NCBI GenBank assembly: GCA_009746045.1
Contig: RPFO01000059.1
Coordinates: 2,303,716 to 2,367,715, forward strand
Direction: 5' to 3'
DNA length: 64,000 nt
Source: Mesostigma viride
Taxonomy: Eukaryota > Streptophyta > Mesostigmatophyceae > Mesostigmatales > Mesostigmataceae
The notes beneath the pieces are model-generated. The model saw only the letters and a program-made list of their open reading frames with translations. It did not search any database and was not told where the DNA came from. The number at the start of each line of letters is the position of its first letter. Position 1 is the first letter of the stretch. Below, in pieces: positions 12,206 through 59,417 of the stretch. The position numbers and the translations under genes are program-made.

Positions 12206-12569
12206 GTCGGCTGTGGGGAGCTGCCATGTTCAGGGGGTGTCAGTGCTGGGATGGCGCTGTTAGAACTAGGCGCTTTTACTTTGGATTTTTTCATAGCAAA
12301 GTGTATACTAATAATACTCCAGTGTAATGGTATATAGTTATGCAGGTCATGCACCCATGCCCGTTCGTTAGTTCCTTGATTACTTGAACACAGGCCTTGG
12401 TGGGAGGTTACACACAATATGGTGCCTATGATCAAGGAGACAACCAGCGCAGGCCAGAAATCGATCCAGTGAGAGCTTGTGTATAGGAAATAGATCCAGA
12501 TGCAATAAATGAATCCAGAATTCCAGATACGTGCAGTTCCGCTCAAAGCTTCACCATTGTCATAACTGG

Positions 12570-15788: not shown

Positions 15789-18700
15789 CTAGCGCCGCCG
15801 CTGGCCCCCCGACTGCTGGCGCCGGCCGTAGCTGCGGATGGGCGGGTTGTAGGGGCGGTGGAGCAGCCCCGAGGGTCCCTGGCTGGACAGCACCACCCGC
15901 TGGTTCTCCACCGCTGCGGCCGCCTGCTGGCTCTGCTCCTCCTCGCGCTCGTTGTATTCCAGCACCTGCCACGCGGTGTGTGTGTGTGGGGGGGGGGGGG
16001 GCAAGGATGAGGGTGAGGAGCAGCGTGGGACGATGGCGGGGGCAAAAGGGCAAAACGAGCACATATGAGGATGAGATTAACAACACGCAGGAGAGATGGC
16101 AGTGGCAGCTGTCATCAGAAACCAGATACGGTGCCGTTGCATATCAGAGGCACCTGGGGAGGTGGTTTTAAGCGGGGTTGGCTGCGTCTTCGAGTGTGGA
16201 TGCCTTAAAAAAAAAAAAAAAAGAGCAATCAAGTGCCCAAATGGCATGAGTGCAGCTAGAACCCAGTCAAAGGTTTCCCTGTCAAAGGACCTCGGCCCAT
16301 ACGCCACTCCCGCACTTCCCGCACTTGTGCCACTACCACCCACAACACAAGTCCCTGTCATCGGTGCGACGGTCTCACCCTCCTTGGTACCATCCATGGA
16401 TGACAGAGACAGAAGCCATCGACAGGGGCCACGCCTGTCCCACGTCATGCAGGGTTGCTGTCACCCTTGCCCATACGCCACATCAAGGTGCGGGTGGCCG
16501 ACTGGGCCAAAGGGTGGACAACACTCGTACAAACCCTCATTCCTTGGTGCTCACAACACAGTGTACATAGCACCATACGTTACTACCAGCCACTCCGCCA
16601 CCCACCAGCCTCTTAAGCGCCTGCTTTTCCATCATCTCCTCTTCCTCCTTCTTCTTGGTAACGAGCGCCAGCGAGCAGCTGCTGGGGACCTGTGGGGGCC
16701 ATGCACAAGCGGGGATGCACACGGTGGGGGCATTGGGGCACCGCATACACATGGCAGGCCAATCACAGGCCAGCCACAGACCAGAGCCGCACAACAGCTG
16801 TCAGCATAGTAGTGCAGGTTGAGCCACACTGTGTTGCTCAACAATGAGAAGATGCCAGGGGGTACCTGCCAGCCTTGCATGAATATTTTGGGAGCAGAAA
16901 AGAAAAGGATGAAGAAGGAAGGATTCAGAAACCCTGGCCATCCGTACGCCCTGACATGGCATTTGTCGGTGTTGTGGGGCATGCCTCCCACATGAAGCGC
17001 CGCGCATGGCCAGCCCTGGGTATCTATGCCACCGAGGCTTATCCCGCACCCACACAAGCAGCTGGCCGCATTGCAAAGATTGCCTCGGTTTCGCTTACGG
17101 CATGCACCAACCGGCGGGACATCGCTCCCGTGCTTGCGTCCAAGGCAAAAGTGTGCAGAGAGGAGGGGTGGATGCTGGGGGGAAGATGGACAGGCTTTCT
17201 CAGCAGGGCGGGCGGGCGGGCAGGTATTTCCTTCAACACCAGTGGGTCAAGCCTCACCTGCAGCGGCTTTGCTTGGGGCTTGTTCCCTTTCTTCAGCAGC
17301 ACTTTAAACTCCACGCCGCCGCTGTCCTCGTCCGCCACCTTGGCTGCCTGCCTGCCCGCCACGTGGCGGCCCACGGAGAGCACGCCGTCCACGCTGGTGC
17401 GGCTGCCACTGCCCGCTCCCGTCTGCGGACGCGGGCAAGAACACCACATGTAGGTAAGCAGACAGGTGCACGGTTGTTATGTACGCTGCGGCATGACACG
17501 CGCAACCTAGGAGTCGGGTGCAAGCAGGTGCGGGCGTGAACACTGTTCCAGATGCTGGCATATGACACATGGCGCACAGCTACAACACAGTCAATGGTGT
17601 GGGGCACAAGCTGCTTCCAATGTGGTGGCGGCACGTGCCCCACCGCGGGCCATACGTGCCAATGCGAGCCCGCACAGGGGAGGGGCAACAGGGCGGTGGC
17701 AAGCGCCCCGTTGCGGCTCCCCGCTCCTGTTGCGCGCCCCCCCCATCCAACCCATGGAGACAGGTGTCGGCCACAGGTTGCAACATAGCCAAGTAACAGC
17801 GTACATCACTCGTACACTGCCCCATAACAGGGGCAGTATACCTCGTGGCTGCACGCCCACTCCTATACCGGGCAACACGGCCACACGCCAGGCCATCATG
17901 CGGTGCCCCCTCACTCCCTGCTCGAGCGCGGAAGGCTCAGGAACCCCGCACGCATGTCCCAGCCATGAGCGATGCCTGCCGGGACCCACGCCCGTGCCCT
18001 GACAGCCTACAGGGAGCATCCGCCATGCACCGCACACAGAGCTGCCCGCCCTTGCCAGCATCAGCACTCGCTGCCATGGCTTGCCAGCAATGCCACACCC
18101 CATGTGGACCTCTGTTCGCTGACCCCCACCCCTTGACGTGTGTCCGCGGCAAGCAAGGGCGCGCACAAGCCAGGCAGCCAGTTGCCATTCGTTGTGAACC
18201 CACCCACATTGGACATCGTGGCCGGCCACTCGTCACCCTCACCTTGAACAGGTTGGCCGGCTCATGCACCCACCCACCTTGAACAGCGTGGCCGGCAGGC
18301 TCATGTTGCTCAGACTGCCCACCCCCTTGCGCCCGTCGCTGGACGACTCGGCCAGCATTGCGCGGTACTCGCGCTCGAACTCCTCGTCCTCCTCGCTGGC
18401 CACCGTCGCACGCACCACCACCGTGTCGTCATCGTACCCTACCGTACGGCACGCGGGCGCACGCTCCTCCCCGTCCTCCCCAAATGCCTCCTCGCCATCC
18501 TCGGCCACCAGGTCCCCGTCCTCATCAAAACCCTCCCCCTCACCGTCCCCCTCCTCCCCCTCCTCGTCCTCCCCTTCGCTGCCGCTGTGACCGCTGTCCT
18601 CTTCATCTGTGGCGCCGCCCTTACCGCCAGAGGCCTGCCAGCCAGGGGCGGGCGCCGCGCACTTGCGCCGCGCCTCCTCCTGCGCCGCCTGCGCCGCCTC

Positions 18701-21700
18701 CATCTCCAGAATGGCCTCGTGCGCCTCCTCGTAGGATCCGAAGACCACCATGCGCGGCCGCAACATCTCAAACACGTCCTGGCGGCGAGAGAGGACAGGG
18801 GGGGGGGGGGGGCAGGGACAAAGGTACGGCGTGAGTGGTGAACATGTGGGTGGCAAGCGAGGAGGATGGGAGGATGGGGGGATGAACAGAAGAGTTCTTG
18901 GTGGTGGACACATACGGTCGCAGGCGGTGGCCACATGGCGTGGGCGACGTGGGATGCGAGCAGCACCGTGAATTCGCGGTTGTGCGTGGATGCACGGTGC
19001 GCGCAGCTGGACCTAGTGCATGCACCCAGACACTCATGACGGCGACTCGGCAGGCAGTGCATGGACATGGGGTAGAGGCGGCACCGTGTCCAACCGATGG
19101 GGCAACCACTGCGGAAATAGATGAGGCAGCGACATGACATCATCAACCAGCTGACGACTCTGCAGACGCCCTGAGGGCAACACGCTGAGTGTTTTACAAG
19201 AACAAAAAACGGAACTAGAGCACAGAAAGATAAGAATGCACACCTGCAGCGCAAACTCGATGTCCATGGGGACTTGCGCCTTGGAGAAGATGTAGCGCTG
19301 GAAGTATGCAAGGAAGCGGTCCATCTTGCGGCGCGCGCTGCCGCGGTCAAAGAAACGCCCGCACGTCTCCAGCAGCGTGATGACGAGGCGCAGGCGGAAG
19401 AAGTCCTCGGGAGGGTCCAGCTCCTCCAGTTCCTGGCATGGTGGGGGGGGGGCGTGGGAGGGGGGAAGGGGGGCGCAGAGGGCGAGGGGAGGACAAAAGA
19501 GAAGCATTTGGGGAAGGAGCGTGAGGGGGGGGAGCAGGAAGGGAGGGACAAACAAGGCAAAGAGGAGCACTTCTGGGTGCCACGCCTGCACGACTGGCAT
19601 GACAGCTTCCAGAAGTCTAAAGGCGCATACAGGGGCACGGCCTAGTTGGTAGCTTGATACACGCTCAATAGGCGCGCTAGTACCAGCAACCAGAAGCAGT
19701 GCATATCACTAGGGGGGCAACGCTGGCCTGAACATGCCAGAAAGTGCAGGCACAGGACATAAAGGGTTTGCAGCCAGCACCACCGGGCGACGCACCCCCT
19801 CATTGCCAGGACTGTGCAAAAAAAGGCTCGTTCATGCAAAGTGCAAGTTAAGAAGAGTTGAGGAATAGGCTAGGCTGGGCTTTCCCACCAGGTAGGATTA
19901 CAGAAACGCAACAGTCCCTCCCAAGTATAACGCCCCCCCTGCTAATACGTGTGGTCCCAAACTCCCGTCTTCACCCCCACATTTGTCCACCATCAACCGC
20001 CCCCACATCCGTTCCCAAGCACATCCAACACCCCATCCCCAGCCCCCGCTCAAGCCCCTGCCCCTCCCCAACCCATCTCCTCCTTGCGAGGCATCACCAC
20101 CCCCATCCTGCGTCTTCTCTCATGCCCCTTGTTGCCACCAAGCCTGTCAGCTCTGCGCGTGCTAACCTCAAGGGTACCCTGCGCCCTCACGTCGGGCATT
20201 TCCTAGCCTTCACCCCAATTAGTACTCCGTGATTGCGTGCCCTAACCTCGGGCGAGTCTCGCCCGAACGAGATGAGGAGGAAGAGCGTGTCGAGGATGGT
20301 CGCACTGTCGACCAGCCGGTAGTTGTAAAGCTCGCCCAGTAGCCGCACTGTGGCCACGCGCCGTTGCTGGAAAGGGGGGGGAAGAGGTGATGGGCGCATG
20401 GCGAGGGGACAAGCAACAACAGGAGCAGAGGGGAATGGGTAAGGCCGTGCTACAGAACAGGCCAAGCCACAGGCACCGTCCCATGGCTTTACTACACGGC
20501 ACCGAGCGGATGTCAGGACAACAACAGCCGGCACCGGTTGGCCAATCGGGTACATTTCCTTAAAAAAACAGCGGCCAGCATGACGGGGGGAACTGAAGGA
20601 TCACCCTGCCACACTGTGTACAGCAACCATACAGCCAGGCCATACGCTCAGCATAGGATTTAAAAATACAGCACTGCGAAAACTTGGGCTTGCGGACTTA
20701 TTCTGTTATCTCGGGACCCACACCGCGCGGGACCTGTGAATCCGCCCAAATTCTGTGTTGGGCCCTGTGCCGGCCTCAAAACTGCTTGCACCGGGAGCAA
20801 CGCAAGACTTGCTCTCGTCCGCAGTGCCCCTTGGTCCACACTCTTCAGAGGCATGAAGCCGTAAGGGCACACCCACCTGCTGCCCGTAGCTGTTGCTCTC
20901 CAGCTCTGAACGGATCTCCTCCAGCACCGCGTCCACTGTCGCACGCCAGGTGGCAGCAGGGGGGGATCCGTTGGGTGACTTTGTCAGTAATAAAAAATTA
21001 GAATATTAGAAAGAAGCAGGGGGAGGCAACTGCCAAGTTCAAGAGCGGGAGGAAAATCCAACCTGAGAGTACCGCGAGCCTTCTTCAGTGACTAAACCAC
21101 AATGACGGCTACAGGGACTAAACCACCACCAAGGTCACAGGCGCACCCAGCGGCCGCTTCTCTGCGAAGCACTGCACGGATGCGTGTGCCGCCATGATTG
21201 TGGCACGGATGCGTGTGCCAGCATCACTGTGGCACATTCAACCCATGCATTCCACTTGGCATCTACCGCATAGCTGGCAGGGGGCCGATGCGATGCGAAG
21301 AGAGAGGGGGTGGCTACCATGCGACGAGACATTATTGCATTTGTTCTCTGAGGTATTGCTAGCCGCACCGTACAAGCACAAGACGCCGTTGATCAGGGCG
21401 GCGGTTGCTGGTGAGTCGCAACCCCATGCGCGCATATCAACCAAATGACACAAACGACACCTTAACGTTCCCTCAACCAGCTTCACTGATTTCCCTTCCC
21501 ATGTCCTCGCCCTCCCCCCGCCACAGGAATACCTGCATCGGCCAAGCCCTTTCACCATCAGGTTTGCTGCCGCGGCCCCCCCCTTGCCTCTGCCCCTCAC
21601 CCTTCCTCTATTTCCACCCGAGACACACCTGCAAGTGCACCACGCCCTCACGCCACTCCCTGCCCCCCCCCCACACACACACAGTACAGTCATTCCCGCG

Positions 21701-24700
21701 TTAAGTTACGATTCTTAAGGTAACGTTCCCGCATTAAGTTACGACGCCGAAGTGTGGGCGGCGACCGTAACTTAAGCCTGGTTGCCATCGTAACTTAACG
21801 CGGTATTGAGCCAAACTGTAGGCCATAGGCTACTATTGGCTGCGGAGGAGGGCGTTTTTGGCCAAGCCCGGACGCCCGGACTCCGGAATAGGGGACCCGC
21901 TATGCTGATAGCTAAGTGAGACGACTCTATCTAACTATGATTGTGGCGTTACAGTTTGTATAGATAGCTGAATAGGCCATGCCGAATGCTCCACTTATTA
22001 ATTAGTGGTAACTAGGCCGAGGTCGGCAGGGAACCCGGATTTCCGGAACACAGAACACTGCGTCACAGAACATAGCTGGCGCCAGGATACGGCAGGATGA
22101 ACAGCTCAGCCGGATCTGAACTGAGGTGAACTAGCAAAGTCGCAGCTGCGCATCCTCGCTATCAGCCTATCACCAGAGCATCCCGCAGCACCCAGCCTCG
22201 CCGCATCCAGAAATGGTACGAAATCCCGTACTTTGAGCGCCCTTGATGCTGCAGCTGAATCGGGCTTGACGAGAGGTGTCGAATGCGGTATAGAAGTCCG
22301 TCAGAGTAGGAGGGGGTGGGCTGCTAGCCTAATTCTACCGTTAAGTTACGTTCCCGCGTTAAGTTACGACGCCCAGAATCAGGCAGCGATCGTAACTTAA
22401 CGCGTGAATGACTGTATACTATAGTGACCACATACGCATCACACACGCACCCAGCCGTATGCCGAGCGAGTCGTGCACGCGGCTGATGCCCCCCACGACG
22501 GAGGCGACGAGGTGCATGTTGCTGTACTTGGTGCGGTGCGCCTTGAGCAGGCAGTGGATCGCATAGTCCTCGACCGCAGGGTCCTTCCAGGCCAGCTTGC
22601 GCAGCAGGTGCAGCACGCCCTCCACGCGCGCCTTGTCCAGGTCAAACAGGAGGAGCTTGCGGATGAACTGGGCAGGGGAATACAAGGGAGGAAAGGGCAT
22701 CCCGCAGGGAGGGGGGGTGGGGGCCAAAAGAAAGGCAGCGCAAACAGTGGCAGATGTCAGAAGACTGGCTGACTGGCAGAACATGGGGGCATTGGCAGCC
22801 TTGGCACATGCACACAAGCATGGCCCATGGCCGATGAGAAGCACACCGCTGATGCAACCACAGGCCTTGGGAGGCAGAGAGACACGCGACGGGGGCGGGG
22901 CTGCCACTCAGGCGCGTGGCGGAGGGAGCGTTAGTTGACCCCAGTGATGTGGTCGCTGACCCAAATGGTGCCCAGCAGCCTGGCAAGGAGGAGCGACGCC
23001 GGGCAAGGGAAGTGGTCGCTGACCCAAGTGGAGCCCAGCAGCCTGGCAAGGAGCGACGCCGTGCAAGGGAGGCGCGCCGCTGGGCAAGGAGGAGAGCCGC
23101 CGGGCAAAGAGGAGCGCAGCCATTATCACTCCTGCCACTAAGCCACGTTGTGCGTATGCAGGCATGAGCGCTGCGGGCCCACAATGTGATCATTATTTGT
23201 GCGTGGTCGAGGGGGGAAGGAAGCGCTGGCACTGGCCTTATGGGCCTGCCCAAGTCTACAGGCTTCTTACCGCAGCCAAGGGAGGTCAGAGGCCAATGCA
23301 TGAAACAGGGCGCCAGCATAAGAGGATATGAGGGGGAAGCACCGTGGAGCAGGGGGCATGGTTACCGTGCCAACTCAACCGCACCAGGGTACCTGCTGCA
23401 TCGGCTCGCGCTGCTTGGTCACGCGTGCCGACCGCAGTGGCGGCTTGCACTGGTAGTAGGCATTCTCCACCATGGTCGCCTGCCGGCTGTCCATGTTCTT
23501 GGCGTTCTTCAGGCGCATGAGGATGTCCAGCAGGTTGGCCGTGCGCTGCTGTGTGGCCGGCAACCGATACAAGAAGCGGCCCGCCACCTCCAGCAACTGG
23601 CACGCCACGTCGATGTTGTGGTGAGTGAAGTCGTCCAGGCACGTCTTGAGGCACGAGAATGCGACACCTGGCGGCGCCACGCGGAACTTGGTCAGCTCCG
23701 CGATGAAGCGGATGTTCCGGATCTTTCCCTCGAGGTTCATCGGGTCTTTGCGCGCGATGATGGCTGCGAATTCCTCCTCTAGCAATGTGACAAGTGGCGC
23801 CCCGATGTCCTTGATGACGGCAGACAGCGTGGCCGCCAGCCGCGCATAGTAAGGCAGCAGCTCCAGCGAGTTGCGGGGCACGTTGAATAGTGCGCGCACG
23901 AGCTTGCGACGCGCGCCCTTGCTGTTCACGTAGCAAAAGTCCTCCGCCACCTTATCAATCAGGTCGCGACTCACACACCCTGGCAGGCGCTGCAGCAGGG
24001 CGTCCACACTCGATGCCTCGTAGCCACCGCCCCGGTTGCTCTTCTCCTTGTCCTTGTCAGCGTCCGCGTCCTCTTTTGCCCCCGACTTGTCCACTGCCTC
24101 CTTCGCCCCCCCCCCACCAGCACTTGTCACATCCCCCGACGACCCCTGTCGTGATGTGCTGGCCTTCACGTCGCTGCTGGACCCTTGCCGGCTGTTGGGC
24201 GCCTTGGTCACGGATGAGGCCTCCCCTTTGTCTCCGCCCTGTGCGGCACCTGCAGGGGTCACCCCGTCGGCCGTGCTGCCGCTCTCCCCCTCCACGTCCT
24301 TAAGGGTAGCGTCGCCCTCGCCGCCCTGCGAAAAACAACGCCAATACGCGGTAAAAATGATACTAGTTGGCGGTATCAACTGTATATCCGCAGTACAGCC
24401 ATTTGCCGGTTTGCTACACCCGCGGGTGATGGACCAGAGCCTCCCACCGTGCGGGAGGTGTTGCTACCATCGTGTGCGTACTCGCAGACGCTGGGCAGGG
24501 TGCGGTGCCCATGCGTGCAAGACATGCACTTGCACCGGCCTCAGTTTGTGTGCGCAAAGGTGGAAATCAGGGGCAATGAACGTCTGGACAAAAACGTGTA
24601 CTACCACGCTTGCAACCTAGCCTGACGAAACACAAGGTGGCACTGCAGCCATGTGGGGACCAAATCAAAATTATGCCAGCACATTGGGGACCGGGGCAGG

Positions 24701-27700
24701 CAGACAAATGAATTGGCCCGAGGTTCTGCACGCCAACAAAGCTCGGATCCTTGCCAGTATGCATGTCCTTAGGCACACCACCCTCCACCTGTCCCTCCTC
24801 CTCTTGCCCCCCCCCCCCCCCCCCCCCGCCCCCCCCCGTGCCCCTCGCGCGCATGCTTACCCTGGCGTCCGCCCCTGTGCCCCTCGCCCATGTGCTTACC
24901 CTGGCGTCCGCCCCCTGTGCCCCTCGCGCGCGTGCTTACTCTGGCGATTGCCCCCGTCGCCCCTCGCGCATGTGCTAACCCTGGCATCCCCCCCTCGTGC
25001 ACCTCACGCATGTGCTTATTCTGGCGACCACCCCTATTGCCCCTCGCGCATGTGCTTACCCTGGCATCGCCCCCCCCGTGCCCCTCACGCATGTGCTTAC
25101 CCTGGCGACCGCCCCCCGTGCGCCTTGCGCGCGTGATTGTTCTGGCGACCGCCCCCCATGCCCCTCGCGCGCGTGCTTACCCTGGTGTCCGCCCCCCCTG
25201 CCCCTTACCGCGTGCTTACCCTGGCGACTGCCCCCCGTGCCCCTCGCGCGCGTGCTTACCCTGGTGTCCGCCCCCCCTGCCCCTTACCGCGTGCTTACCC
25301 TGGCGACTGCCCCCCGCGCCCCTCGCGCGCGTGCCTACCCTGGCGTCCGCCCCCCCTGCCCCTTACCGCGTGCTTACCCTGGCGACTGCCCCCCGTGCCC
25401 CTCGCGCGCGTGCTTACCCTGGCATCAGCTCCCCCTGCCCCTTACCGCGTGCTTACCCTGGTGACTGCCCCCCGTGCCCCTCGCGCGCGTGCCTACCCTG
25501 GCATCCCCCCCCCCGTGCAGCTCGTGCGTGTGCTTACCTTGGCGTCCGCCCCTTTGGCTCCGCGCTCGGACCCCTCCGCATCCCCCAGAAGCACCGCGGG
25601 CACCACCACCCTGCGCGTGCGGGAAACAGCCGAATGGGATGTGCCAGAGGATCATGCGCCATGGGGGCAGCAGCCACAATCACAGCCATCACAGCAACAT
25701 CTAGACACAAAACATTTCCAACCCACATGTTCCATCCACCCACCCACCCACCCACCCACCCACCCACCCACCCACCCACCCACCCACCCACCCACCCACC
25801 CACCCACCCACCCACCCACCCACCCACCCACCCACCCACCCACCCACCCACCCACCCACCCACCCACCCACCCACCCACCCACCCACCCACCCACCCACC
25901 CATCCATCCATGAGGTTCATCTGCCCGTACTATTCCGTGGGCCACAGCCAGCCTGGGTGGGGTGCCGCCCACCAGCAGCCCGCATGGCTGCCTGCGGATG
26001 TTAAGTGTGCATTTTCTTCGCAGAGAAAAGCTGGCGGGGCATGAGGCATGATGCTGCCAGGCTCCGCGGTGCATGGCACGCCACAGACCGTAACGGGGAA
26101 GGTGTGGAATATGCATACCGAGGCTCGCCTGTCATATGCGCACAATGGGGAAATGGCGCGGTCGCCATGGGGGGGAAGACTTGCCACGGGGGAGCGGCCG
26201 TGGCTTGGCCAGCACGACGCCCTGGCATTGCGGCTGCCATAGGACTACCGGTGGCTACCTTACATGTCTCTAGTGCCGCTGTATGGGCTGCGCCCATTCG
26301 CTAACTAGCAGGTAAAGACAATGCCTGGCTGGTGTGACCCCCATGAAATGTTCATATGAGGGCACCCGCAGAGCATCCACTTATGCTGACAACCAGGCAG
26401 TTCCACACTCTCCGTGCACTACTTCCGATCGCTTCCCGGGTCTCCACGCGCGTACTGCTCTGTCACGGATGCAAGCGTATCGCATCGCGCCGGCACCCAC
26501 CGTAGGTCCGGCAGGGACTCGTAGAACGCGCGCGTGTCCTCATCATCAAACAGGGGCTCGGCCGGCGCGGATTCCTGCACCCGCGCAGACACCAAACCAG
26601 ACGATCCACAATAGCTAGGTAGGCGAATCACCCCAGTTGTAACTTGCATGGAGAAGCGAGCAAGGCCTCATGCCAACGCGACCTCAACCAGGTCGTACAG
26701 GGGCGACGACATGATGCGCGACAACACGTGGGCATGCCGGCTCCGCTTCAGAGCTTCTCGGCTTCTGACATCAACAACAAGCGAACTACAACAGAGCACT
26801 ATTGTGAGCCAACGCCCGCAAACCACCTGTCATCTCCCCTGCCCGGTCTGGGAGCAGGGATGCATGACTTGGCAGGAGACGGGAGGGCATCCACTACCGG
26901 ACCCTTAGATGTGGCTACCACCTACGCGTATGCCAGCAACCAGCTTTTTCCGTTGGTTTTTGTTACAACAAACCGGCTTGGCCAGGGAGCATGGTTAGCT
27001 GACATGGCCATAACATCACGCTATTGGCTATATACCTTTGATGCAGTGTTGAGCCTCCCTGCCTACCTTGGATGGTGTGGTCCGCCCCTCCGCCCCCATG
27101 GACAGGATGCTGACCGCCTACCTTGGATGGTGTGGTCCGCCCCTCCGCCCCCATGGACAGGATGCTGACCGCCTACCTTGGATGGTGGGGTCCGCCCCTC
27201 CGCCCCCATGGACAGGATGCTGACCGCCTACCTTGGATGGTGTGGTCCGCCCCTCCGCCCCCATGGACAGGATGCTGACCGCCTACCTTGGATGTTGGAT
27301 GGCGTGGTCCCCCCCCCTCCGCCCCCATGGACAGGATGCTGACCGCCTACCTTGGATGGTGTGGTCAGCCCCCCCTCCGGCCCCATGGACAGGATGCTGA
27401 CCGCCTACCTTGGATGGTGTGGTCCGCCCCCCTCCGCCCCCATGGACAGGATGCTGACCGCCTACCTTGGATGGTGTGGTCCGCCCCCCTCCGCCCCCAT
27501 GGACAGGATGCTGACCGCCTACCTTGGATGTTGGATGGTGTGGTCCGCCCCCCCTCCGCCCCCATGGACAGGATGCTGACCGCCTACCTTGGATGTTGGA
27601 TGGTGTGGTCCGCCCCCCCTCCGCCCCCATGGACAGGATGCTGACCGCCTACCTTGGATGGTGTGGTCAGCCCCCCCTCCGGCCCCATGGACAGGATGCG

Positions 27701-30700
27701 TGTCGTCCGGTCGCTCTCCGGTATGGCGGGCGGCTGCTTGTCGAGGCTCTCCGCCAAGCTGGCACGCGACACCACACACACACGCCACGTGTCACCCCAC
27801 ATACACCGCACATGGTGCCACATTCACCGCACATGGCCCCCCCCAAACACATGGCCAGCGATGCAGCCACCCTCAGCATGTACGCCATGTCAACGAGGCT
27901 ACCAGTGGATCCTGTGCCGCCCCACCGGTGTACAAGTGTGGGTATCCGTGGACATGTGGCAATCATGAAACTGGGCGATGTGGCCGCAACAGTGTAACTA
28001 ATGGGGGGGCCCGCGGCCAAACATGCTGTCTCTAGGGATACAAAACTCATGCTTCTTGGCGGTGCTTGATGAACGAGGCGGAGGCCAGCTAACCAGCAAA
28101 ACATCGGGCCGAAAACACATGGCAGCACGCGGACATATGCTCATCATCATCAAGAACAACTCAAGTTAGACATTATGCCCTCAGGCGTTGGGCCCAAAAA
28201 GCACTTGAATGCCAGAACAAGTCTGTCATGCGGGGGCATGCACGGAGGCCGGTGCACATCCAGGCATGGTGGTATATATGTACTAATATATATGTAGGAT
28301 TGAATTGAATTGAATTGGAACATAACTCCGTTGGGAGTATATGTAGCACATATCCCTGAGAAGGGGTATATGGCTTTTAATACACGCTGGGCTACTTCCT
28401 GCAAGGGTAGGGTGTAAACTACACCTGCTCTGGGTGCACAAAGTGCACCTGCACACCACTATGTATTCAGGCACCTACCGAAAGGCGCCGACATAGGGGG
28501 GGAAGATCATCATGGCTATACTGTACAAAGGCTAGCTAGGGCATGGCTTCTCAGCAGAGAGTAACTCCCTGCATGGGCACAGCATAATTAAATAAAGCTA
28601 GGCATCATCTGGTGTGTGGCACATCATAGGCACATATGTACATGATTAAAAAATGCTAAGGCATCATCTGGTGTAGGGCCAGTAGTAGGCTTACATATAC
28701 AAGGCCACGGCTAGGCCTGACTATTCTACACTACTACTGCTGTATTCCCCTAAGCTGGGGCGTCTGGGGGTGCTGGGGCAGCGGGGGTCGCTTGCCAGGG
28801 CTTGTGGCCGACGTAGATGGTCGCCCCCTTCCAGTACACCGGCTTCCCCGCCGCTATCTGCCGGAGCTGGAGGTAGGTGGTAGGTCGGCCATATGTAGGA
28901 CACTACTAGTATTTGTAGGACACTACCAGTATATGTAGGACACTACTAGTATATGTAGGACACGACCAGTATATGTAGGACACTACTAGTATATGTAGGA
29001 CACAACCAGTATATGTAGGATACTACTAGTATATGTAGGACACTACTAGTATATGTAGGACACTACTAGTATATGTAGGACACTACCAGTATATGTAGGA
29101 TACTACTAGTATATGTAGGATACTACTAGTATATGTAGGACACTACCAGTACATGTAGGATACTACTAGTATATGTAGGACAATACTAGTATATGTAGGA
29201 CACTACCAGTATATGTAGGACACTACTAGTATATGTAGGACACTACCAGTATGTGTAGTATACTACTAGTATATGTAGGACACCACTAGTATATGTAGGA
29301 CACTACCAGTATATGTAGGACACTACTAGTATATGTAGGACACTACTAGTATATGTAGGACACTACCAGTATATGTAGGATACTACTAGTATATGTAGGA
29401 TACTACTATTATATGTAGGATACTACTAGTATATGTAGGACACTATTAGTATATGTAGGATACTACTATTATATGTAGGATACTACTATTAGATGTAGGA
29501 TACTACTAGTATATGTAGGACACTACTAGTATATGTAGGATACTACTAGTATATGTAGGACACTACTAGTATATGTAGGATACTACTAGTATATGTAGGA
29601 TACTACTAGTATATGTAGGACACTACTAGTATATGTAGGACACTACTAGTATATGTAGGATACTACTAGTATATGTAGGACACTACTAGTGTATGTAGGA
29701 TACTACTAGTATATGTAGGATACTACTAGTATATGTAGGGTACTACTAGTATATGTAGGACACTACTAGTATATGTAGGACACTACTAGTATATCTAGGA
29801 TACTACTAGTATATGTAGGACACTACTAGTATATATTTAGGATACCATCACGCGTATGGCGGCGCCGTACCTGCGCCGTCTCGCAATGGCTTATCGATGG
29901 CCATGCATCCGGGGGTGGACTAGGGACACCGGGGGGTGTTTCATAGGGAACACTTCGGGGGTCATGTCACAGGGTCACTGGGGGGGATGGACAACCGATT
30001 TGGGGAGCCTATGCATGGGCGCGCACGTACGAAGACACGTTCCGCAGCAGCTGGTCAAAGGACTTGCGCAATCGCGCGTACTGGGCGCTGCTCTCCTCGC
30101 ACAGCGCGCCGCGGGAGGCCAGCGTGCGCTCGTTCTCATCTTCCGTCGAACGCAACGCCTGGGGGGGGCAGCAAGGAAATGGCAAGGCAAGGCAGGGTGA
30201 GAGAATTCCGACGAAATGAGGACGCTGTGGGGGCGGATGCTCCAGGGACAAACGCTCCTATGAACTGCCTCATGCTGGGTGGCGGCGTTGTGTAAGTGCG
30301 CCAACAGGCACATGCTGTCACGAGCCGCTGGAAGCGAGGCAGGCAGGGTCACGGGAAAGGACAGGTACGGGGAATGGAGGCCAGCGGGTGGACTGTTCCA
30401 GGCACACGCAAGACGTCCTGGAGTTGAGGATATGCACGCGATCGCAACGATTTCTGGCAACAAGCATTACGCGGACAGTCAACGTCCAACAACAGCGGGC
30501 GGGCTATTGGACAATCGTCTGATGGCCGGCCCTCTGAACCCGTTGGGGCACTACAGGTTGGAGCTAGCGATGAGCAGGGACGTTACAGAAGGTGGCTGTG
30601 TACACAACGGCCACGCACACAACCATCCTTGACCTGCCCTGCCCTACAATTTCTCATCCGTTTTTTGTTCTAGCCTTCACTGCCATGGGCTGCATGGTCA

Positions 30701-33700
30701 TCTAAGATGGCAAATTGCATCAAATCGCATGCACCCGATACAATGGAAATGGCACAGGCATCGAGCATCCGCAGTCTCTTGCAGGACCCAACCAACTAAC
30801 TAGAGCGCATCACCCATCACCCAGGAACGTGCCAGCGGTTCCTATACTGCGTGCGCTGTTGTGACTACCCACTGCGTCTTCGGCAAGGAAGCAGGCAAGG
30901 GGTCACTACAGCACACTATACTACGGCATGGTGCCACCCACTGCGTACTCTGCGTGGAAGCAGGCAAGGGGTCAGTATAACACACTATACTACGGCATGG
31001 TGCCACCCACGGCGTACTCGGCGTGAAAGCAGGCAAGGGGTCAGTATAACACACTATACTACGGCATAGTGCCACCCACTGCGTACTCGGCGTGGAAGCA
31101 GGCAAGGGGTCACTATAGCACACTATAATACAGCATGGTGCCACCCACCGCGCACTCAACGTGGAAGCAGGCAAGGGGTCACTATAGCACACTATACTAC
31201 AGCATGGTGCCACCCACCGCGTACTCGGCGTGGAAGCATGCAAGTGCAGCGTCATAGAACGCGTCCAGCATGCGCACGATGACCGCCTTCTTGTCATCAG
31301 GGAAGGAGCGCTCCAGGGGGCCCTCCGCGCTGGCGTCTGCAACAGGGGCCGCCGCGGTTGGCGCGGGTGATGCGGTGGTCGCAGCCATGGCACTGCCTGA
31401 TGCCACATTTGCCTGCAGAGGAAGAATGGAGGGAAGGGCGACCAAGCCAAATGCAGTGAATGAGCGGCTGTTGTGAACCCACTAAATGGCGTTGATCGTC
31501 ATTGGACTGCGCCACGCCAACACTGAGGTCAGAGGAGACCAATGGAAGGTACTACTAGAGAAAAGAAGAAACGACGCAGCATTCTCATGACTACTTATGC
31601 CACCACCCCAGGCATTACCTCCAGCATGGGCAAGAGTGATCCTCCCCAGGGTGGGAATCCTGCCGGACGGCGGGCAAAGGAACAAGCTATGGCAACAAAG
31701 TTACGGCAGCAAAGTAATGGCCACGCGTGGATGGGCCAGAGGACCAGGGCCACGCGATAGACGTGCTGCAGCAGACTTGCTGCAACAATTGGCTGCCAGA
31801 TAAAAAGGAGTGCGGGCTACTTACTGGCGCCGCCTTGTCGCCCTCTGCGGGTGCCGCCGCCGGCTTGTTCGCCTGCGCCGGGTGGATTCCCAGTGCATCC
31901 TGTGCCAGCTTGGCGAAGCTGACCACCAGCGACAGGTGGGCGCCTGCCAGCTCCTTGTCCTTCATCTCTAGCAGGTCCGGATTGGTCTGTGTGGGGGGGG
32001 GGGTTGAGGGGGGCACAGGGTGACCATGCGCACGCTCACACCGCATGAGGACATGCAGCAAAGGGGTTGTTATGGGAAGAGTTGGGAATGACACGCGTTG
32101 CGGCGGCTTGCCACTGACGGTACACAAACCCCACAAATACATCAAAGAATGCTGGGCCTTTGCGCTAGCGTCCGCATGCGCGCAAGGTGACGGCCAATAA
32201 ACGGTTTGTGTATTCCCGTGATACCACGTAATCGTGGTGGTAGCAACACGCGCCGCTTCTGTCCCTTGCTCCCTACACACACAGCAAGGCACCTCACCAT
32301 GCGCTGCACCCCTCACGCGGCATGCCCCACCTCCCCTCACCATGCTCTTGACCACGGCCAGAATGGGCCCCGGCTCGCTGAACACGCCCAGCTGGTACAG
32401 CTCCAGCAGCAACCGGAGCGACACGCGCCGACGCAGCACGCGGGACGACAGGTCGCCGCCGTCACCGTCGGAGGGTGCCGGCTGGGCCAGGGCCATGCCG
32501 GACGCCGACTTGACAGGTACCGGCACGAGCAGCTGCTTGACGAGCGCGGGAATAAGGGCGGGTGCAAAGTCGGCGTACCGCTGGTGGAGCGCGGAGCAAA
32601 CCTGCACGTGCGAGTAGGCGCCCACAGGTACACATGAACGCGAGAAACACATGAACGCACATGCACGTGCAGGCATACGGCCACACACAAGCATAACCAC
32701 CCACCAACACCCACCCATGCGTCAACCGTGGCATGGGAGTGAGCAGAGGCAGCACCCGTGGGCCACGCACACGCACGATCAGACAGCCGCACATGGACGC
32801 GCTGCCACCGCAATTGCGCCACCTGGACGTTGCGGCAGTCACTTGTCCCTATCACGGCCCCTCCTTCCCTTGTCCATTCCATTGCGCGTCCAACCCCAGT
32901 ACCTCCCTGCAAACACCCACGTGTGTGTGCACGGCAACCAGCGGGAGCAGGCACCACCACTGGAGCATGCTTGTATACTGGCACGCGGCACAGCAGGCTC
33001 CCCATCCCCCAGCCATGCCTCCCACTATACACGGTGCTGACATCCCCCCACAAGCCCCCTCCCCCGCTGCGCATGCTCAATGCCAGCCCCGTGCTGTCAT
33101 GCCCACCCCACCCCACCTGCATGGTGCCAAGTCCCCCACCCCCCTTCACCTGCACGGTGGCAGCCATGTCCCCCCCCCCCCTTCACCTGCACGGCGGTGG
33201 CCGCATCCCCCCCCTCCCTCACCTGCACGGCGGCGGCCACGTCCCCCGTCCTCAGCTTTGCCTCGCAGATGGCGGTGACGGCCTCGCTGACGTACTTGCT
33301 GAGGTTGACCCCTTTCACCTCCTCCACCAGCGTCGCGCGCTGCTCCTCGCCCAGAGTGCGCAGCTTCTTGATCACGCCCGTGCAGCGCTTGATGGAAGAG
33401 TCCAGCCCCTTGAGGAAGCACTCATCTGGGAGGTGGGGGAAGAGGGGGGATAGGAGGAGGAGGGGAGGATAGGGGGCCCAAGACAAAGGGGCACAGGAAA
33501 GAGTTGGAAAGAAGGGGGGGGGGGTATAACAATGGGCATGAGGGGAGGGCGCTGCGTGGGGGAACGTTTAAATGGGGCAGACACACACATGGGGGAAGGC
33601 ATCTGGCAGCGGCGCAGGCGCATGTGACACCGCTGGCAGGCACGCAGTGGGAAAGAACCACCAGCACACACGGGGCGGTGGTCCGGTCACGGCACCAGCC

Positions 33701-34913
33701 CGGACCGTGCAGGCGGCAAGAATTGCATCGCTCCATCACAGACGGGAGTAAACCTTGCTCGTCGTAAAGGGAAGTTCCCAACATGCAAAAGCTTTGCTAG
33801 CCCAGCTCGATGCTGATGATCATCGATGGGTGTTATCGCCCCCCAGTGCTGAGAACCTTGCTTTGCGTTTCTCGATATATTGCCCGTGCCACACCATCAA
33901 AGCACACTAGGGGCGTATGGCTCGGTGCGCTACCCCCTGCGTGTGTCCTGGCCCCCGCTCCGCAAACAGCAACAGCATCGATGGACAAACCGGCGGATCA
34001 TCCGATGGATGACGCGGTGAACAACCCAAACACCACATGCGACACCGAGCGGGCGCACAGCCCACTCCGTGCCAGGCGAGAGCAGACACGCAGCTTCGGC
34101 ACAGGATGGGTGGCTGCAACGCGCTGGAATGCCAGAATTATGACGATGCACGCGATCTACTGAACAAGCATGTGCTGCCAGCCTAGGCTGCCACACGGCA
34201 CCTCGACCCGTTGACCGCCACGTGGCACGCGTCTCACCTGGTCGTGCAGGGGACAGGTTGGCCGCCCGCAGATCCCTCCTCGCCTTGATGGCCTTGCGTG
34301 CCTCCTCGGCCTTGGCAGCAATCTCCTGCACCACAGGAAGTTCCCGCGATCCGAATACAGAGGTCAATTTGTGCGAGGCTGCGCCACAGCAGAGCGCATC
34401 GAAATTACTACAGATATAAACAATAAATTTACCTCAAGTTACAGTCGCGACGGATACACACACCAGTAAATGATCATTAGAATCATTAAAAAGCAAACAC
34501 CAGATGTAACCATAATTCGGCTGTAGTGAAGGCATCCTCGATCCCGTATTGACAAACCATACCTCGTCACGTATCCGTTGCTCTTCAAGCTCTCTCGCCC
34601 TCTTTTCCTCCTCTTCTTTTCTTAAGGCCTCTTCCTTCAACTTCTGTGCCTCTTCAAGCTGGCTTCGCTCCTGTTCTTCCTTTTGTTTTTCATCTGTTTC
34701 CTTCTTAGAAGAATTGGGCTGCCTTAAGGTTGGATGCGGCGGCTTGCTTGCAGCATTGTTTTCATCTGGTTTGCCCTGTCCCCTCCGCTTCCCCCGTTCC
34801 CTACGAGAGCTGGCCTCTTTATCGCTTTTCTTCTCGCGATTATCACTGCCCTCCGCCGCGGGGATTGCGGGTGAATTCTTCGCCTCTTTCTTCGTCTCTT
34901 GTGGCGGAGCCAT
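15789..34913 (-). CDS. UPF2: UPF2, nonsense-mediated mRNA decay scaffold
   Basis: Nineteen exons (in transcription order): 34913-34563, 34325-34238, 33425-33223, 32601-32341, 31986-31825, 31412-31218, 30158-30031, 27758-27653, 26574-26501, 25610-25538, 24325-23393, 22667-22451, 20935-20877, 20366-20247, 19432-19244, 18778-18278, 17422-17258, 16689-16606, 15965-15789. They total 1361 codons in one intact frame. UPF2 bridges UPF3 at the exon junction complex to UPF1. The N-terminus is Lys/Glu-rich. MIF4G-1 begins near 147 (LDSSIKRCTGVIKKL, NLSKYVSEAVTAICEAKL). MIF4G-2 is about 655-858 (LQRLPGCVSRDLIDKVAEDF, FTHHNIDVACQLLE). MIF4G-3 is about 859-1100 (LLGELYNY, LDPPEDFF, ETCGRFFDRGS). An acidic stretch lies at about 1111-1165. 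The UPF1-binding C-terminus has VEFKVLLKKGNK and KRLVLEYNEREEE. It is longer than human (1272) or Arabidopsis (1181) UPF2. Five introns begin with junction-spanning tandem arrays. The weakest exon calls are exons 7 to 10. Confidence 0.96.
18197..18300 (-). repeat. Exon 16 end/donor duplicated in tandem (3 copies)
   Basis: The end of UPF2 exon 16, CGGCCACGCTGTTCAAG|GTGG, is repeated 35 bp on as CGGCCAACCTGTTCAAG|GTGA. A more decayed third copy reads CGGCCACGATGTCCAAT|GTGG. The first two carry usable AAG|GT donors at 18278 and 18243. Confidence 0.88.
21687..22414. mobile_element. MITE with CAGTCATTC termini and TA target duplication
   Basis: This 728-bp element lies in UPF2 intron 12. Its ends are inverted repeats: left CAGTCATTCCCGCGTTAAGT, and right (reverse complement) CAGTCATTCACGCGTTAAGT, continuing TACGAT. 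TA flanks both sides (21685-21686 and 22415-22416). The block TTCCCGC(G/A)TTAAGTTACGACG recurs subterminally at both ends. CAGT termini and a TA duplication point to the Tc1/mariner/pogo superfamily. No transposase frame is present, so it is non-autonomous. Confidence 0.9.
24842..25549 (-). repeat. 38-40 bp array spanning the exon 10 donor (about 19 copies)
   Basis: On the UPF2 sense strand, exon 10 ends GGCGGACGCCAAG|GTAAGCA. The array that follows repeats GGCGGACRCCAGG|GTAAGCA with a GC-rich spacer. Nearly every copy holds a strong GTAAGC donor-like site. The sense strand is G-rich. Confidence 0.93.
25737..25905. repeat. (CCCA)n tetramer array
   Basis: About 42 tandem CACC tetramers lie in UPF2 intron 9. 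They keep every frame open on both strands (poly-PTHP, poly-VGGW) and encode nothing. Confidence 0.97.
27061..27665 (-). repeat. 55-64 bp array spanning the exon 8 donor (about 11 copies)
   Basis: UPF2 exon 8 ends with ...CATCCTGTCCATGGGG and ACCACACCATCCAAG|GTAG. The intron then repeats the last ~45 exonic bases plus GTAGGCGGTCAG about eleven times. All copies keep AAG|GTAGGC. Copies differ in length (55, 58 and 64 bp), so different donors give different frames. Confidence 0.95.
28300..28890 (-). mobile_element. LINE-A copy 3, 5'-truncated, inside a 20-bp array
   Basis: The left end has a (TTGAA)n tail next to the ACTCC-CAAC-GGAGT hairpin, then the LINE-A 3' UTR and the last ~150 bp of ORF1 (reverse of 28741-28890). 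It is flanked by ATATGTAGGA at 28290-28299 and 28891-28900, which is also part of the 20-bp array unit. One array-like unit lies on the left and the bulk on the right, so the element inserted near the left end of the array in UPF2 intron 7. Confidence 0.87.
28891..29850. repeat. 20-bp AT-rich tandem array (about 48 copies)
   Basis: The unit is TATATGTAGGA(C/T)ACTACTAG. Variants mostly change C to T at position 12 and T to C in ACTAC(T/C)AG. The period is strict. It lies in UPF2 intron 7, in strong base-composition contrast to the GC-rich surroundings. There are no unique spacers, so it is not a CRISPR. Confidence 0.96.
30857..31235 (-). repeat. 69-bp array spanning the exon 6 donor (6 copies)
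   Basis: UPF2 exon 6 ends CTTCCACGCCGAGTACGCG|GT. The segment from about 20 bp inside the exon through GTGGGTGGCACCATGC and a TATAGTGTG-containing spacer is repeated every 69 bp down to 30857. Donor positions are near 31218, 31149, 31080, 31011, 30942 and 30873, all reading GTGGGT. Confidence 0.94.
33111..33260 (-). repeat. 33-37 bp array spanning the exon 3 donor (4 copies)
   Basis: UPF2 exon 3 ends GTGGCCGCCGCCGTGCAG|GT. The intron repeats GGCYRCCRCCGTGCAG|GTGA after G runs of varying length. Donors fall at 33223, 33187, 33150 and a weaker one at 33117. Confidence 0.9.
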
Positions 34914-35248
34914 CAGGCTTTGTCAGCGATGATCCATGCCATTAACTTTCACGTCGTGCAAACAATCGCATTCCTTTCACTACCTCCATGCCTTTCTCTG
35001 GCGTTTTACTTCCTGGAAGCTAGCACTGCACGTTTGGCTAACGAGTGTAGCGGATATCCATATTCCATGCCACAAATTTGTCAGATCATCATGCAGACCA
35101 GCCTTAGCGTTTTGCACACAATATTTACCTCGCGCCTGCCTCGCGAGCAAATTTACCAGCGCGCCTGACCGCCTGTAATGGATATTTGCTGGGTGTTCTG
35201 TAGCATTTGTTGTTGTTGTTGTGTGGGCGGTTCCGCTTGTTGTTCCGC

Positions 35249-35283
<35 letters not shown>

Positions 35284-35824
35284 GCGGCATGAAACGGTCA
35301 GCACAGCCGCATTTTCGTTTATGCAGCTTCTTGTACTTGAACCAAGATGCTAACAAGACAGTTACCGAGTACGGAGAAAGAAATTAGAATAGGCGAAACT
35401 TTTTTCTATGGATTCGGCCTGGATTCGGTGGCAAGGGCGCCAAAAGGCTTGAAGCGTCAGAATTCGCGCGCCTCCTCCAGACATATCCAAGTGGAAAAGA
35501 GCGTAGCTTGCCACGTGGATTTTATTTGGTAGCCGTGGACGCATTGCATTCAAGAGAGGACCCATTTTGCATGCAGAATTCCCGGATTTAGGCTATTGAA
35601 GCCTTGTTCACAAAAACTGACAAGGAAGGTGTTAATTCCCAAAATCGAGTCGCAAAGCGTGCTGTTGCCGGATTTTCCATATAATGGGCGCGTCCCAAGG
35701 GCGGCAATTGTAGAGCTTAATCGGTGAAGGCAATCGGTGAAGTCTAGCTAGTTGAAATATTACATCGTTTGCCTAGTCGGTACGACTCGGAAAACTGTCT
35801 GGCGTATTGGCGTTATCAAGCAAG
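34914..35824. promoter_or_regulatory. Divergent intergenic region between UPF2 and the bilin reductase
   Basis: This 911-bp gap lies between two start codons that point away from each other, so it must hold both promoters unless 5' UTR introns are involved. It contains a GTT/CAA repeat at 35204-35284. No TATA box or known element could be placed with confidence. Confidence 0.6.
35204..35284. repeat. (GTT)n / (CAA)n trinucleotide repeat
   Basis: Two GTT blocks are separated by GTTCCGCTT units. On the minus strand, upstream of UPF2, they sit in a 67-codon frame that encodes poly-Gln. That frame is not supported as a gene. Confidence 0.9.
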
Positions 35825-38800
35825 ATGTCTGTCGTGATTTGCACAACAGTTATCAAGCTGCCAGCCCCGACTCGTGGCGTGGCTACCACTAGCCCAAGGC
35901 GAGGGCGAGGTTTCCTATGGGAGCGTGGCCAGCTTAGCGCTCGCAAGGCGTACCGCATTGCCGGTGCCTCGGTGCGCTGCATGTCCTCAAGCGCTGGGGA
36001 GAAGGCTACCTACGGCGGCGCCTACCGGCAATTTCTCGACCAAGCCTGGCGCCGCGTGGGGGAGAAGGCCAACGGTCTTGTGAAGTTCCCAGACGATGTT
36101 CGTAATTCTCGTGTCCTTGTGACGCTGGAGATACTAATTCCTTCCAGTATTATCTGCGAACAGACCGATGGCCAAATATGGCTTACAGCTTGCTTACGCT
36201 CCAAGCTTCTCTAGGCAGCACATTGCGGGTTGCCGCGACATCGCTCATGCACGCTATTATTCTGCAAGTCTTTTGCCTGAGGTAGCAACTTCCATGGGGC
36301 TTCTGCATCATTTCATCCGACTAACCCTTTCTGGGGCGTTTCGTTTCCTTGACAGAAAGCAAGCGCGTTGTTATGCCCTACCACGTCCTTTGTCGGCGTT
36401 GTTGCATTAGACACTGGGTACAGCCCCATGCTTCTAGAACGGGGGACGTGCGCCAGGGCCGTGTTGGCACTCCATGTTCAGGCTAGGTGGATGCCGCGCG
36501 ATTGCACTGTGCACCCAGCAGAGACTAGCGTGGCAGAGGGCGGTGTTGTGTGGCAGAGGGCGGTGTTGCATGGCAGAGGCCCACACGGGTGTCCCTGTCG
36601 CTGAGCAATCAACCGTGGGTGTGGCTTGTCAGTGTCCACGTGGCTGCGCTGCACACGCCCACCTCATGTCCATCCTGCCTTGCAACCCAGTGATGAGAAG
36701 ACCACCCATCATGTTGCGCGGCCCCACATGTGAATGTGTGCTGTTTCCTGACTTGGCTGTGCTCGCCCATCCCACGACGGCCTGCCTGGTGGTGTTCGTG
36801 TCGCCTCCCCAGGCATTCACCCACATGCACGCTCCCGGTCGTGATGGCGGTGAGGCGCTCCACATCTACGGCCAGGCAGGGCAGGCGAACGCTCTGCGCT
36901 ACCTGCGCACCCTGGTGATTGACCAGGGACCGCAGCTGCAGGTAGGTGCTGCATCGAGTGCGTCCAGGGTCCCCCCTTTCTCCCCGTGCCCCTCACCGCG
37001 CGTGCTCTCCCCCCCCTACTGCTCCCATCGTGTGCACTCTCCCCCCCCAACTGCTCCCACCGCTGTGTGCTCTCGTCCCCCACCGTTTGTGTTCTCGTCC
37101 CCCACCGCGCGTGTTCTCGTTCCCCACCGCGTGCGTGTTCTCGTTCCCCACCGCGTGTGCTCTCATCCCCCACCGCGTGTGTTCTCGTTCCCCTCGTCCT
37201 CCCACCCCTCCTAATGCCCTGAATGTTCACGTCCTGTTCATGACGCAGCTTCTCGCCCTGTCCTTGTCACAGGTTCGCGCCCGATCTCCTGTTTGGCACG
37301 ATCATGGTGCCTGTTTCTTGACCCTGTGCATGTTCATGTCCGTATCTACGTAGATACGGATGTCTTCGCAACCCACTTCTTGCACCCGGCACCATCATGC
37401 GGCGCATGCATGCACCCTTTGCCTGTGCAGCAAGCCATGTCTGCCACTTGAAGCCCCTTGGCGGTGCGTATTGAACTGCTGGCCGCCCACACCTTGTGTT
37501 TGTGTCTGTGCATGGCGTGCGTGCGCAGGTGTTCAACTGCTGCTTCTTCCCAGACCCGGCGTATGACCTGCCCGCGTTTGGGGCCGATTTCGTGACCATG
37601 CCCCGCGGCAGCCTGGCAGCACTGTGAGTTAAGGGGTGGTTGGGTGGCACTGTGAATAAAGGGTTGTTCGGGTGGCACTGTGAGTGAGGGGTTTAGGGTG
37701 GCACTGTGAATGAAGGGGTGGCACGTGAGTAAAGGGGTGGTCGGATGGCATGTGAGTAAAGGGGTGGTCGGGTGGCACTGTGAATAAAGGGGTGGTCGGG
37801 TGGCATGTGAGTGAGGGGTAGTCCGGTGGCATGTGAGTGAGGGGTGGTCCGGTGGCATATGAGTGAGGGGTGGCCCGGTGGCATATGAGTGAGGGGTGGC
37901 CCGGTGGCATTCTGAGGGGTGGGGTCGGGTGGGCCCTGGGGTGGGCACATGCCCACACATGTATTAATGGTGGAATGATTGCTGTTGCTGCAACCACGGC
38001 AGTCTGTGCCGGATGTGTGCGGGTGGACATGGGCATCTATGCCTGCCCTGCCCCTCCCCGTCCCCCCGGTGCATCCCAGGCCTTGCGGACGCCTTGTGCT
38101 TCTAGCGTACCGTGAGAGTCTGCTGCGATGGCCCGGCAAAACATGGGCCCAACACGTCTGGACCCATAACCACCGCTGCATGAAGCTGGTGTATGGGGAA
38201 GAGGCCCATTTAACGACATTGTCGCCGACCAGGGCTAGTCACCGTTGCAGGCTCGCGTTGGCATTCTTGTGTCTGCAGGGCATACGTGCTAAATTGAGGC
38301 AACCTGTGTGCATACTTCCAGGGCGTGTGGCGGATGCCAGCATTGGTTAGCAGTGATGTGGACGTGTGCGTAATGCATTTGTGTGCATGGCCTGCGGGCC
38401 GCCTGATGATGGCTTGACATGTCATCCTCCACTCCTCTTGCCTGAGATTTCCTGCTGCCCTCCTGGCCCTCCCGCACTCCTGCACTCCTGCACTCCTGCA
38501 CTCCTGCACTCCTGCACTCCTGCACTCCTGCACTCCTGCACTCCTGCACTCCTGCACTCCTGCACTCCTGCACTCCTGCACTCCTGCACTCCTGCACTCC
38601 TGCACTCCTGCACTCCTGCACTCCTGCACTCCTGCACTCCTGCACTCCTGCACTCCTGCACTCATGCACTCCTGCACTCCTGCACTCCTGCACTCCTGCA
38701 CTCATGCACTCATGCACTCATGCACTCATGCACTCATGCACTCATGCACTCATGCACTCATGCACTCATGCACTCATGCACTCATGCACTCATGCACTCA

Positions 38801-59400: not shown

Positions 59401-59417
59401 CTGTGCAGGTGGTTGGG
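41478..59417 (+). repeat. 72-bp satellite, 249 units, 17.9 kb
   Basis: Head-to-tail copies of a 72-bp unit starting CAGGTGGTTGGGGTGGAGGA and ending GGAGGTGCGGGAGCTGTG. From 41478 to the last unit start at 59406 is 17,928 bp, exactly 249 units. Almost every unit read is identical. Exceptions are the first unit (GGGAAACAAAGG), four single-base indels in units between 58340 and 58600, and the last partial unit. The plus strand has 38 G and 7 C per unit. Since 72 is divisible by three, three of six frames stay open for about 5,600 codons. These are repeat artefacts, not supported genes. The array begins 107 bp after the bilin reductase stop. Confidence 0.98.

Follow-up and report, generated by a model that had tools for sequence, protein, structure and literature searches.

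Why should an intron begin with a tandem array that repeats the exon end and the splice donor just before it? The question is raised by a 64,000-nucleotide stretch of the Mesostigma viride genome (the window; C1613:2303716-2367715, in an assembly of 440 Mb and 2243 contigs), where five introns of the UPF2 gene and one of a bilin reductase gene open in this way. An initial annotation had proposed a recurrent process and had offered, as possible meanings, a mechanism tied to the exon/intron boundary, tolerated donor redundancy or a route to intron growth; it had also suggested a scan for a bias of donors over acceptors. We found that about one in four introns of the sampled genes carries extra copies of the exon end and donor near its start. 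In the reading that we favor, at a probability of about 0.58, these copies are by-products of repair that are tolerated at donors, thinned near acceptors and purged from exons.

Exon ends and donors recur at the start of introns

We aligned 40 exonic bp locally to the adjacent 300 intronic bp and scored a junction as positive at a score of at least 14. Over 13 loci, copies of the exon end were found in the neighbouring intron at 25 of 100 donors, and copies of the exon start at 9 of 104 acceptors (p = 0.002). At a threshold of 18, the counts were 22 donors versus 5 acceptors (p = 0.0003), and a bootstrap over the 13 genes gave a donor-acceptor difference of 0.16 (95% confidence interval 0.06-0.24). 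Pure chance is ruled out by mismatched exon-intron pairs, which were positive in 0.3-0.4% of cases. The bias was also found outside the window (21 of 77 donors versus 9 of 81 acceptors, p = 0.014). ValRS contributed 9 of the 25 positive donors and 3 of the 9 positive acceptors. Introns carrying donor copies had a median length of 828 bp, versus 696 bp (p = 0.06).

The copies take several forms. CCT8 intron 3 (L035) shows an exact 40-bp duplication over the donor, CCT3 intron 6 (L032) a 48-bp array with nine decoys (later copies of the donor with an intact GT and at least 14/20 identity), and ValRS intron 8 a 47-bp array over its donor. A second ValRS array (C224:3050057-3050353, block B) is made of 9-bp AAG/GTGAGC donors and follows an exon that ends in KMSK, which we take to be the catalytic KMSKS motif. 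Because this motif spans the KMSK/SLGN junction, splicing there would be pinned to the first donor. On the acceptor side, copies (L032 intron 5, L033 intron 6, ValRS introns 12, 16 and 18, L037 intron 5 and patatin intron 5) lay mostly 84-102 bp upstream, with one at 256 bp and one also at 203 bp, a spacing that resembles many donor shifts (91-122 bp).

The sample beyond the window comprised two preset 100-kb blocks, A and B, and chaperonin genes located by PF00118. Block A (C1801:1.0-1.1 Mb) yielded no gene for the test, and only ValRS and a patatin-like gene were used from block B, where the other predictions were short or doubtful. Exons were predicted with a small gene hidden Markov model seeded on checked genes, with an 18-kb satellite masked, and reading frame and family continuity were checked by eye. 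ValRS was identified by internal PF00133 matches, the patatin-like gene, CCT2 and the L037 chaperonin by Pfam, and the other chaperonins by PF00118 matches with subunit names assigned by eye; the C-terminal patatin piece, searched alone, had no Pfam match. We omitted as doubtful the donors of L030 intron 1, L032 intron 1, L036 intron 1, ValRS introns 1, 6 and 22-24 and patatin intron 1, and the acceptors of ValRS introns 1 and 22-24 and patatin intron 1. Five donors (ValRS introns 8 and 14, patatin intron 3, L029 intron 2 and L033 intron 2), two of them positive, were moved by hand on the basis of reading frame and conserved motifs (the class I synthetase KMSKS and the signatures of chaperonins and patatins). 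L034 was compared only with L035, and PF00118 chaperonin matches on C557, C1407, C1912, C1106 and C2011 were outside the sample. On C2011 (G000), Cpn60 and class I synthetase matches lie in unbroken long frames, unlike the intron-rich genes elsewhere, and the contig may be bacterial contamination. Block A holds several reverse-transcriptase-like frames (by eye) with a DGDVESNPGP motif, presumably 2A-like.

In the window, the UPF2 gene (15789..34913, minus strand) comprises 19 exons and 18 introns and encodes 1361 aa; in the rebuilt model all introns are GT-AG and all are in phase. Its identity rests on PDB UPF2 matches and on the Pfam domains MIF4G and Upf2. The bilin reductase exons match PF05996, and a GST gene in the window matches GST domains. 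The introns mark the window as eukaryotic, and its bilin reductase and composition are consistent with a green alga. Tandem Repeats Finder supplied the coordinates of all six arrays, each of which includes the last exonic bases and the donor. Five lie on the minus strand in UPF2. The exon 3/intron 3 array (33102..33247; exon end 33223, GT 33222-33221) has a 36-37-bp unit and 3 decoys, and the exon 6/intron 6 array (30867..31244; exon end 31218) a 69-bp unit including 27 exonic bases and 5 decoys. Units of 55-65 bp, with about 47 exonic bases, form the exon 8/intron 8 array (27061..27699; exon end 27653); it has 10 decoys, at least 8 of which score the same as the first donor. The exon 10/intron 10 array (24832..25552; exon end 25538) has a unit of about 40/79 bp and 15 counted decoys, and the short array at exon 16/intron 16 (18198..18296; exon end 18278) a unit of about 35 bp and 2 decoys. 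The sixth lies on the plus strand of the bilin reductase gene (37619..37932), at the donor of the exon at 37529-37623, previously numbered exon 4; its 26-28-bp unit includes 5-11 exonic bases, a looser Tandem Repeats Finder count gives 12 copies, and the protein continuity LAAL/DFQPL agrees with the first donor.

A second test, the best shifted match of a 20-mer centred on the junction, could be applied to the 23 introns of the window that were definable, fewer than the 31 previously counted. Six of 23 donors scored 15-19, while the remaining 17 donors and all 23 acceptors scored 14 or less (Fisher p = 0.02). The six arrays first noticed were thus recovered by Tandem Repeats Finder and by this test, with 2 to 15 decoys apiece in place of the 3 to 19 donor-like sites reported. 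The accompanying claim that no array crosses a 3' splice site held for the 23 acceptors of the window but not for the genome, given the 9 of 104 acceptors with exon-start copies. In the same test 86 of 323 mid-intron points (26.6%) scored at least 16, so that the donor rate in the window equals the mid-intron rate; among points 60 bp inside exons, the count was 0 of 46. The stricter exonic-sequence test (score 14) retained 4 of 23 donors and 0 of 23 acceptors; it missed UPF2 intron 10 and the bilin reductase intron because their units hold too little conserved exonic sequence.

Position and make-up of the copies

We scored the density of duplicated points along the genes; this profile, like the decile, run-start and run-span analyses, covers the loci without L037, and ValRS intron 4 (a missed exon) and L036 intron 2 were excluded from the run, decile and pair counts. 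Upstream of donors, the density was 0.1-0.4% at 40-120 bp, 3.5% at -40 to -20 and 16% at -20 to -10. It reached 22% at the donor (±10 bp), was 14-16% just after it and 18-23% at +40 to +400, and fell to 9-10% at 200-400 bp before the acceptor, 4-6% in the last 200 bp and 3% at the acceptor itself. Mid-intron points were duplicated in 25% of 1270 cases. By intron decile, from 5' to 3', the values were 0.20, 0.25, 0.20, 0.16, 0.14, 0.11, 0.07, 0.05, 0.065 and 0.04 (82 introns; 5' versus 3' half, p = 0.0003). Outside predicted genes, the density was 1.3% in block A, 6.2% in block B and 3.3% in the window (182 points), versus 19% in the 5' intron half. Duplications are thus enriched toward the 5' end of introns and close to background level toward the 3' end.

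Mean GC skew runs from +0.30 in the first decile of the 82 checked introns to -0.34 in the last, so that these introns have G-rich starts and C-rich ends. G-richness had been put forward as a local driver of the arrays. This idea found no support: skew did not predict duplication within deciles, where ten tests gave one negative correlation (p = 0.013).

The copies are in direct orientation: 607 direct pairs were found in 50 of 98 introns, versus 4 inverted pairs in 4 introns. Of 191 windows of 900 bp away from checked genes, 37 contained direct pairs and 22 contained inverted ones. Thirty-one introns had between one and three pairs, 49 in all, of which 23 were complete tandems by the criterion used. 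Other copies are 30-51-bp repeats around a filler of 47-255 bp at donors and 43-205 bp at acceptors. Shifts at 30 donors ranged from 28 to 302 bp, seven of them above 160 bp, and some are multiples of a shorter unit. When the fillers (15 donor, 7 acceptor) were compared with one another, no match was found at E 0.01, and the units in the window differ from array to array. The process is thus recurrent with unrelated units, as first proposed, and for the fillers and units compared a single dispersed, introner-like repeat family is rejected.

Are the displaced copies decayed tandem units? In 11 of 15 cases the remainder expected under decay scored under the 95% point set by other introns (L029 intron 7, L032 intron 3, L033 introns 3 and 4, patatin introns 5 and 6, and ValRS introns 11, 12, 13, 15 and 17), which argues against decay; it lay above that point in L029 intron 3, ValRS intron 19 (a separate tandem), L030 intron 3 (weak) and ValRS intron 20 (weak). 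Some fillers contain further copies (L029 intron 7, L033 intron 4, ValRS intron 19). Tandem duplication of a whole exon with its acceptor was rejected as well: in gapped alignments of 30 cases the exonic part spanned 5-107 bp, with 25 of them falling within 14-57 bp, and the exons were 73-501 bp long. Taken together, the copies resemble duplications left by nick or break repair.

One pair of haplotype-like contigs allowed a comparison of CCT8 copies (L034 and L035). Both share a 40-bp donor duplication and they differ by a 43-bp tandem duplication that is 0.98 identical to its neighbour, one of 8 indels of at least 6 bp between the two. For this single pair, the difference suggests that the duplication process is recent. 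An insertion of 3.1 kb, in which a frame looks gag-like by eye, is also present in one CCT8 copy (L034 3546-6669 versus L035).

The window holds other repeats. A 72-bp satellite at 41478-59417 (about 249 copies, 99% identity) begins about 500 bp past the last exon recognised in the bilin reductase gene. One gene-finder run read most of it as coding, in a single frame of about 18 kb on the plus strand. A dispersed repeat with a peptide like GKPVYW..A.I.V.HKPWQ (by eye) lies at 12560-13170 and 28300-28880 of the window and near 58000 in block B. A TATAGTGACC-like motif (by eye), possibly a small mobile element, occurs in L029 intron 3, in UPF2 intron 6 and near 22430 of the window.

Tolerated by-products or a target at the donor

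We propose that frequent short-range direct duplications, with units of about 20-300 bp and of the break- or nick-repair kind, accumulate toward the 5' end of introns. One that covers the donor would be nearly harmless: the 5'-most donor would still close the exon, and the rest would be spliced out. A surviving duplication would bring about 10-55 bp of exonic sequence into the intron and may in time grow into an array, which would appear to start at the donor because the first donor in use leaves just one partial unit exonic. Where a duplication affects an exon, or the branch site, polypyrimidine tract or acceptor, it would disturb the message more often, and such copies would be thinned by selection.

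Coding sequence is open up to the first donor. Decoys score much like first donors (median 6.4 versus 6.5), and 17 of 26 arrays have a decoy that scores as high as the first donor or higher; in such arrays, protein continuity (by eye) calls for the first donor, and the ValRS KMSK/SLGN junction demands it. Judging by protein continuity, splicing seems to take the first of several near-identical donors. Among the meanings originally offered, tolerated donor redundancy would fit best, as far as DNA can tell. We infer first-donor use, a repair mechanism and a role for selection from these patterns.

Several observations weigh against this reading. When runs of 79% identity were counted in 90 introns, 28 spanned donors versus 16.5 expected under blind placement, and 7 spanned acceptors; run starts peaked 15-45 bp upstream of donors. 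Copies of acceptors kept AG in 6 of 8 cases (6 of 7 aligned; one AA, one unaligned), so decoy acceptors are not plainly harmful and our earlier idea of harm is weakened. In acceptor copies, mismatches tend to fall on third codon positions (8/6/20 by position; third positions 20 of 34, 9 acceptors). Exon bins after the acceptor were not uniformly clean: 4.8% at +10 to +20, then 0.5%, 1.6% at +40 to +80 and 6.1% at +80 to +120, the last extending partly past short exons. When the 20 donor-spanning introns were removed, a weak 5' bias was left (0.116 versus 0.064, p = 0.09). Tolerance alone may not account for the 5' excess, given the lower density outside predicted genes, a comparison qualified by the richness of that DNA in mobile elements. 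Finally, the last locus sampled, L037, was positive at 0 of 8 donors and 1 of 8 acceptors.

Some of these points suit a different explanation, which we consider possible with odds clearly against it: the donor, or the sequence immediately upstream of it, would be a mutational hotspot. Nicks made during transcription or R-loops at the 5' splice site could, for example, be repaired by fill-in and leave duplications of about 40 bp that comprise exon end and donor, with or without filler. Run starts numbered 32 in the last 60 exonic bp versus 11 in the first 60 intronic bp, and run ends at acceptors 7 exonic versus 13 intronic (p = 0.005). The best evidence for a hotspot is the short exonic part, which averaged 43 bp versus 73 bp predicted by blind placement (20 donors, P = 5e-5), yet the blind figure runs too high for shifts that are multiples of a shorter unit. 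Several copies are 30-51-bp direct repeats around filler, and duplications are denser in the 5' part of introns than in DNA outside genes. However, young runs show no clear excess. At 92% identity or more, 11 runs spanned donors and 0 acceptors, versus 8.9 expected for each (90 introns), and at 100% identity 7 and 0, versus 6.1; starts at 92% were 14 versus 7, not different from acceptors. Run starts also climb again at +60 to +100 (15 starts), and GC skew within deciles does not predict duplication. Exon-anchored copies, which decay more slowly, could in part inflate the count of old donor-spanning runs. Since a copy stays detectable for longer when its exonic partner is constrained, we rank the hotspot below the preferred account, as its rival.

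The donor is thus not clearly a special target. The mechanism at the exon/intron boundary that the initial annotation had in mind finds some evidence among older copies, but young donor-spanning runs match blind placement and mid-intron points are duplicated as often. A fuller version of the hotspot, which we think a shade less probable again, makes donors fragile spots where transcription- or splicing-linked breaks or nicks about 15-45 bp upstream would repeatedly copy about 40 bp of exon end with the donor, and introns would grow from the 5' end under a strict first-donor rule.

Selection for redundant or regulatory donors is an improbable reason for the persistence of the copies. Donor copies kept GT in 21 of 25 cases (GC in 3, one unaligned) and their scores match those of first donors, but both GT retention and the mismatch spectrum are near neutral drift. 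Mismatches by codon position were 26/20/37 (20 donors; third positions 37 of 83), and donor copies were accordingly rejected as coding relics; they look roughly neutral, with a spectrum near that expected for a drifting copy and a constrained exon. Moreover, 77 of 123 decoys would shift the frame, near the two thirds expected without selection. Least probable of all is that ordinary minisatellites happen to coincide with donors in a gene full of repeats, or that the exon boundaries are wrong: UPF2 is repeat-rich and the gene finder misplaced several donors, but chaperonin, ValRS and patatin-like genes show the pattern too, and it holds without the five hand-moved donors (23 of 95 versus 9 of 104, p = 0.004; outside the window 19 of 72 versus 9 of 81, p = 0.02).

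Relation to known duplications and repeats

Intronic minisatellites are a general class of repeats. The arrays described here are likewise multi-copy, with 26-79-bp units, and differ in that the unit holds the exon end and donor. Among the matches listed in a literature search, donor-spanning arrays were not described as a recurrent class in the titles and abstract openings of open-licence papers. Such arrays would offer a polarised, countable route of intron growth. They are also natural experiments on donor choice, with near-identical donors in series and a protein that shows which must be used. Gene finders are prone to misplace exon ends at such sites, as seen in at least 5 introns in this analysis.

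In Chlamydomonas and Volvox, tandem repeats are concentrated near intron ends, in a two-sided U shape within introns (PMC3887541). Those repeats, like ours, lie in green-algal introns near intron-exon junctions, whereas the bias here is one-sided, toward donors, and the longer units reach into the exon. In a model of intron gain, an AGGT-bearing exon undergoes tandem genomic duplication, and the duplicated AGGT bounds the new intron position (PMC3443670, PMC2891723). Both cases involve tandem duplication that includes splice-site sequence; here, however, each array sits within an intron, at a donor already present, the coding sequence runs on over the first donor and no new intron position arises. 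The intron-gain model does not apply as such, whereas the intron growth of the original proposal is supported.

A close parallel is the small tandem duplications attributed to nick or break repair in plants and animals, in rice with units mostly below about 125-200 bp (PMC7971508, citing Vaughn and Bennetzen 2014); fill-in at break ends by Pol alpha-primase/CST has been described (PMC8355091). In both systems, the duplications are direct, local, tens to hundreds of bp long, and tandem or partly tandem. They differ in that the Mesostigma copies span splice donors and bring exonic sequence with them, in roughly one sampled intron in four, and the repair pathway here is putative. Thus, the pattern is real, recurrent and polarised; its mutational ingredients are ordinary, and its location is unusual.

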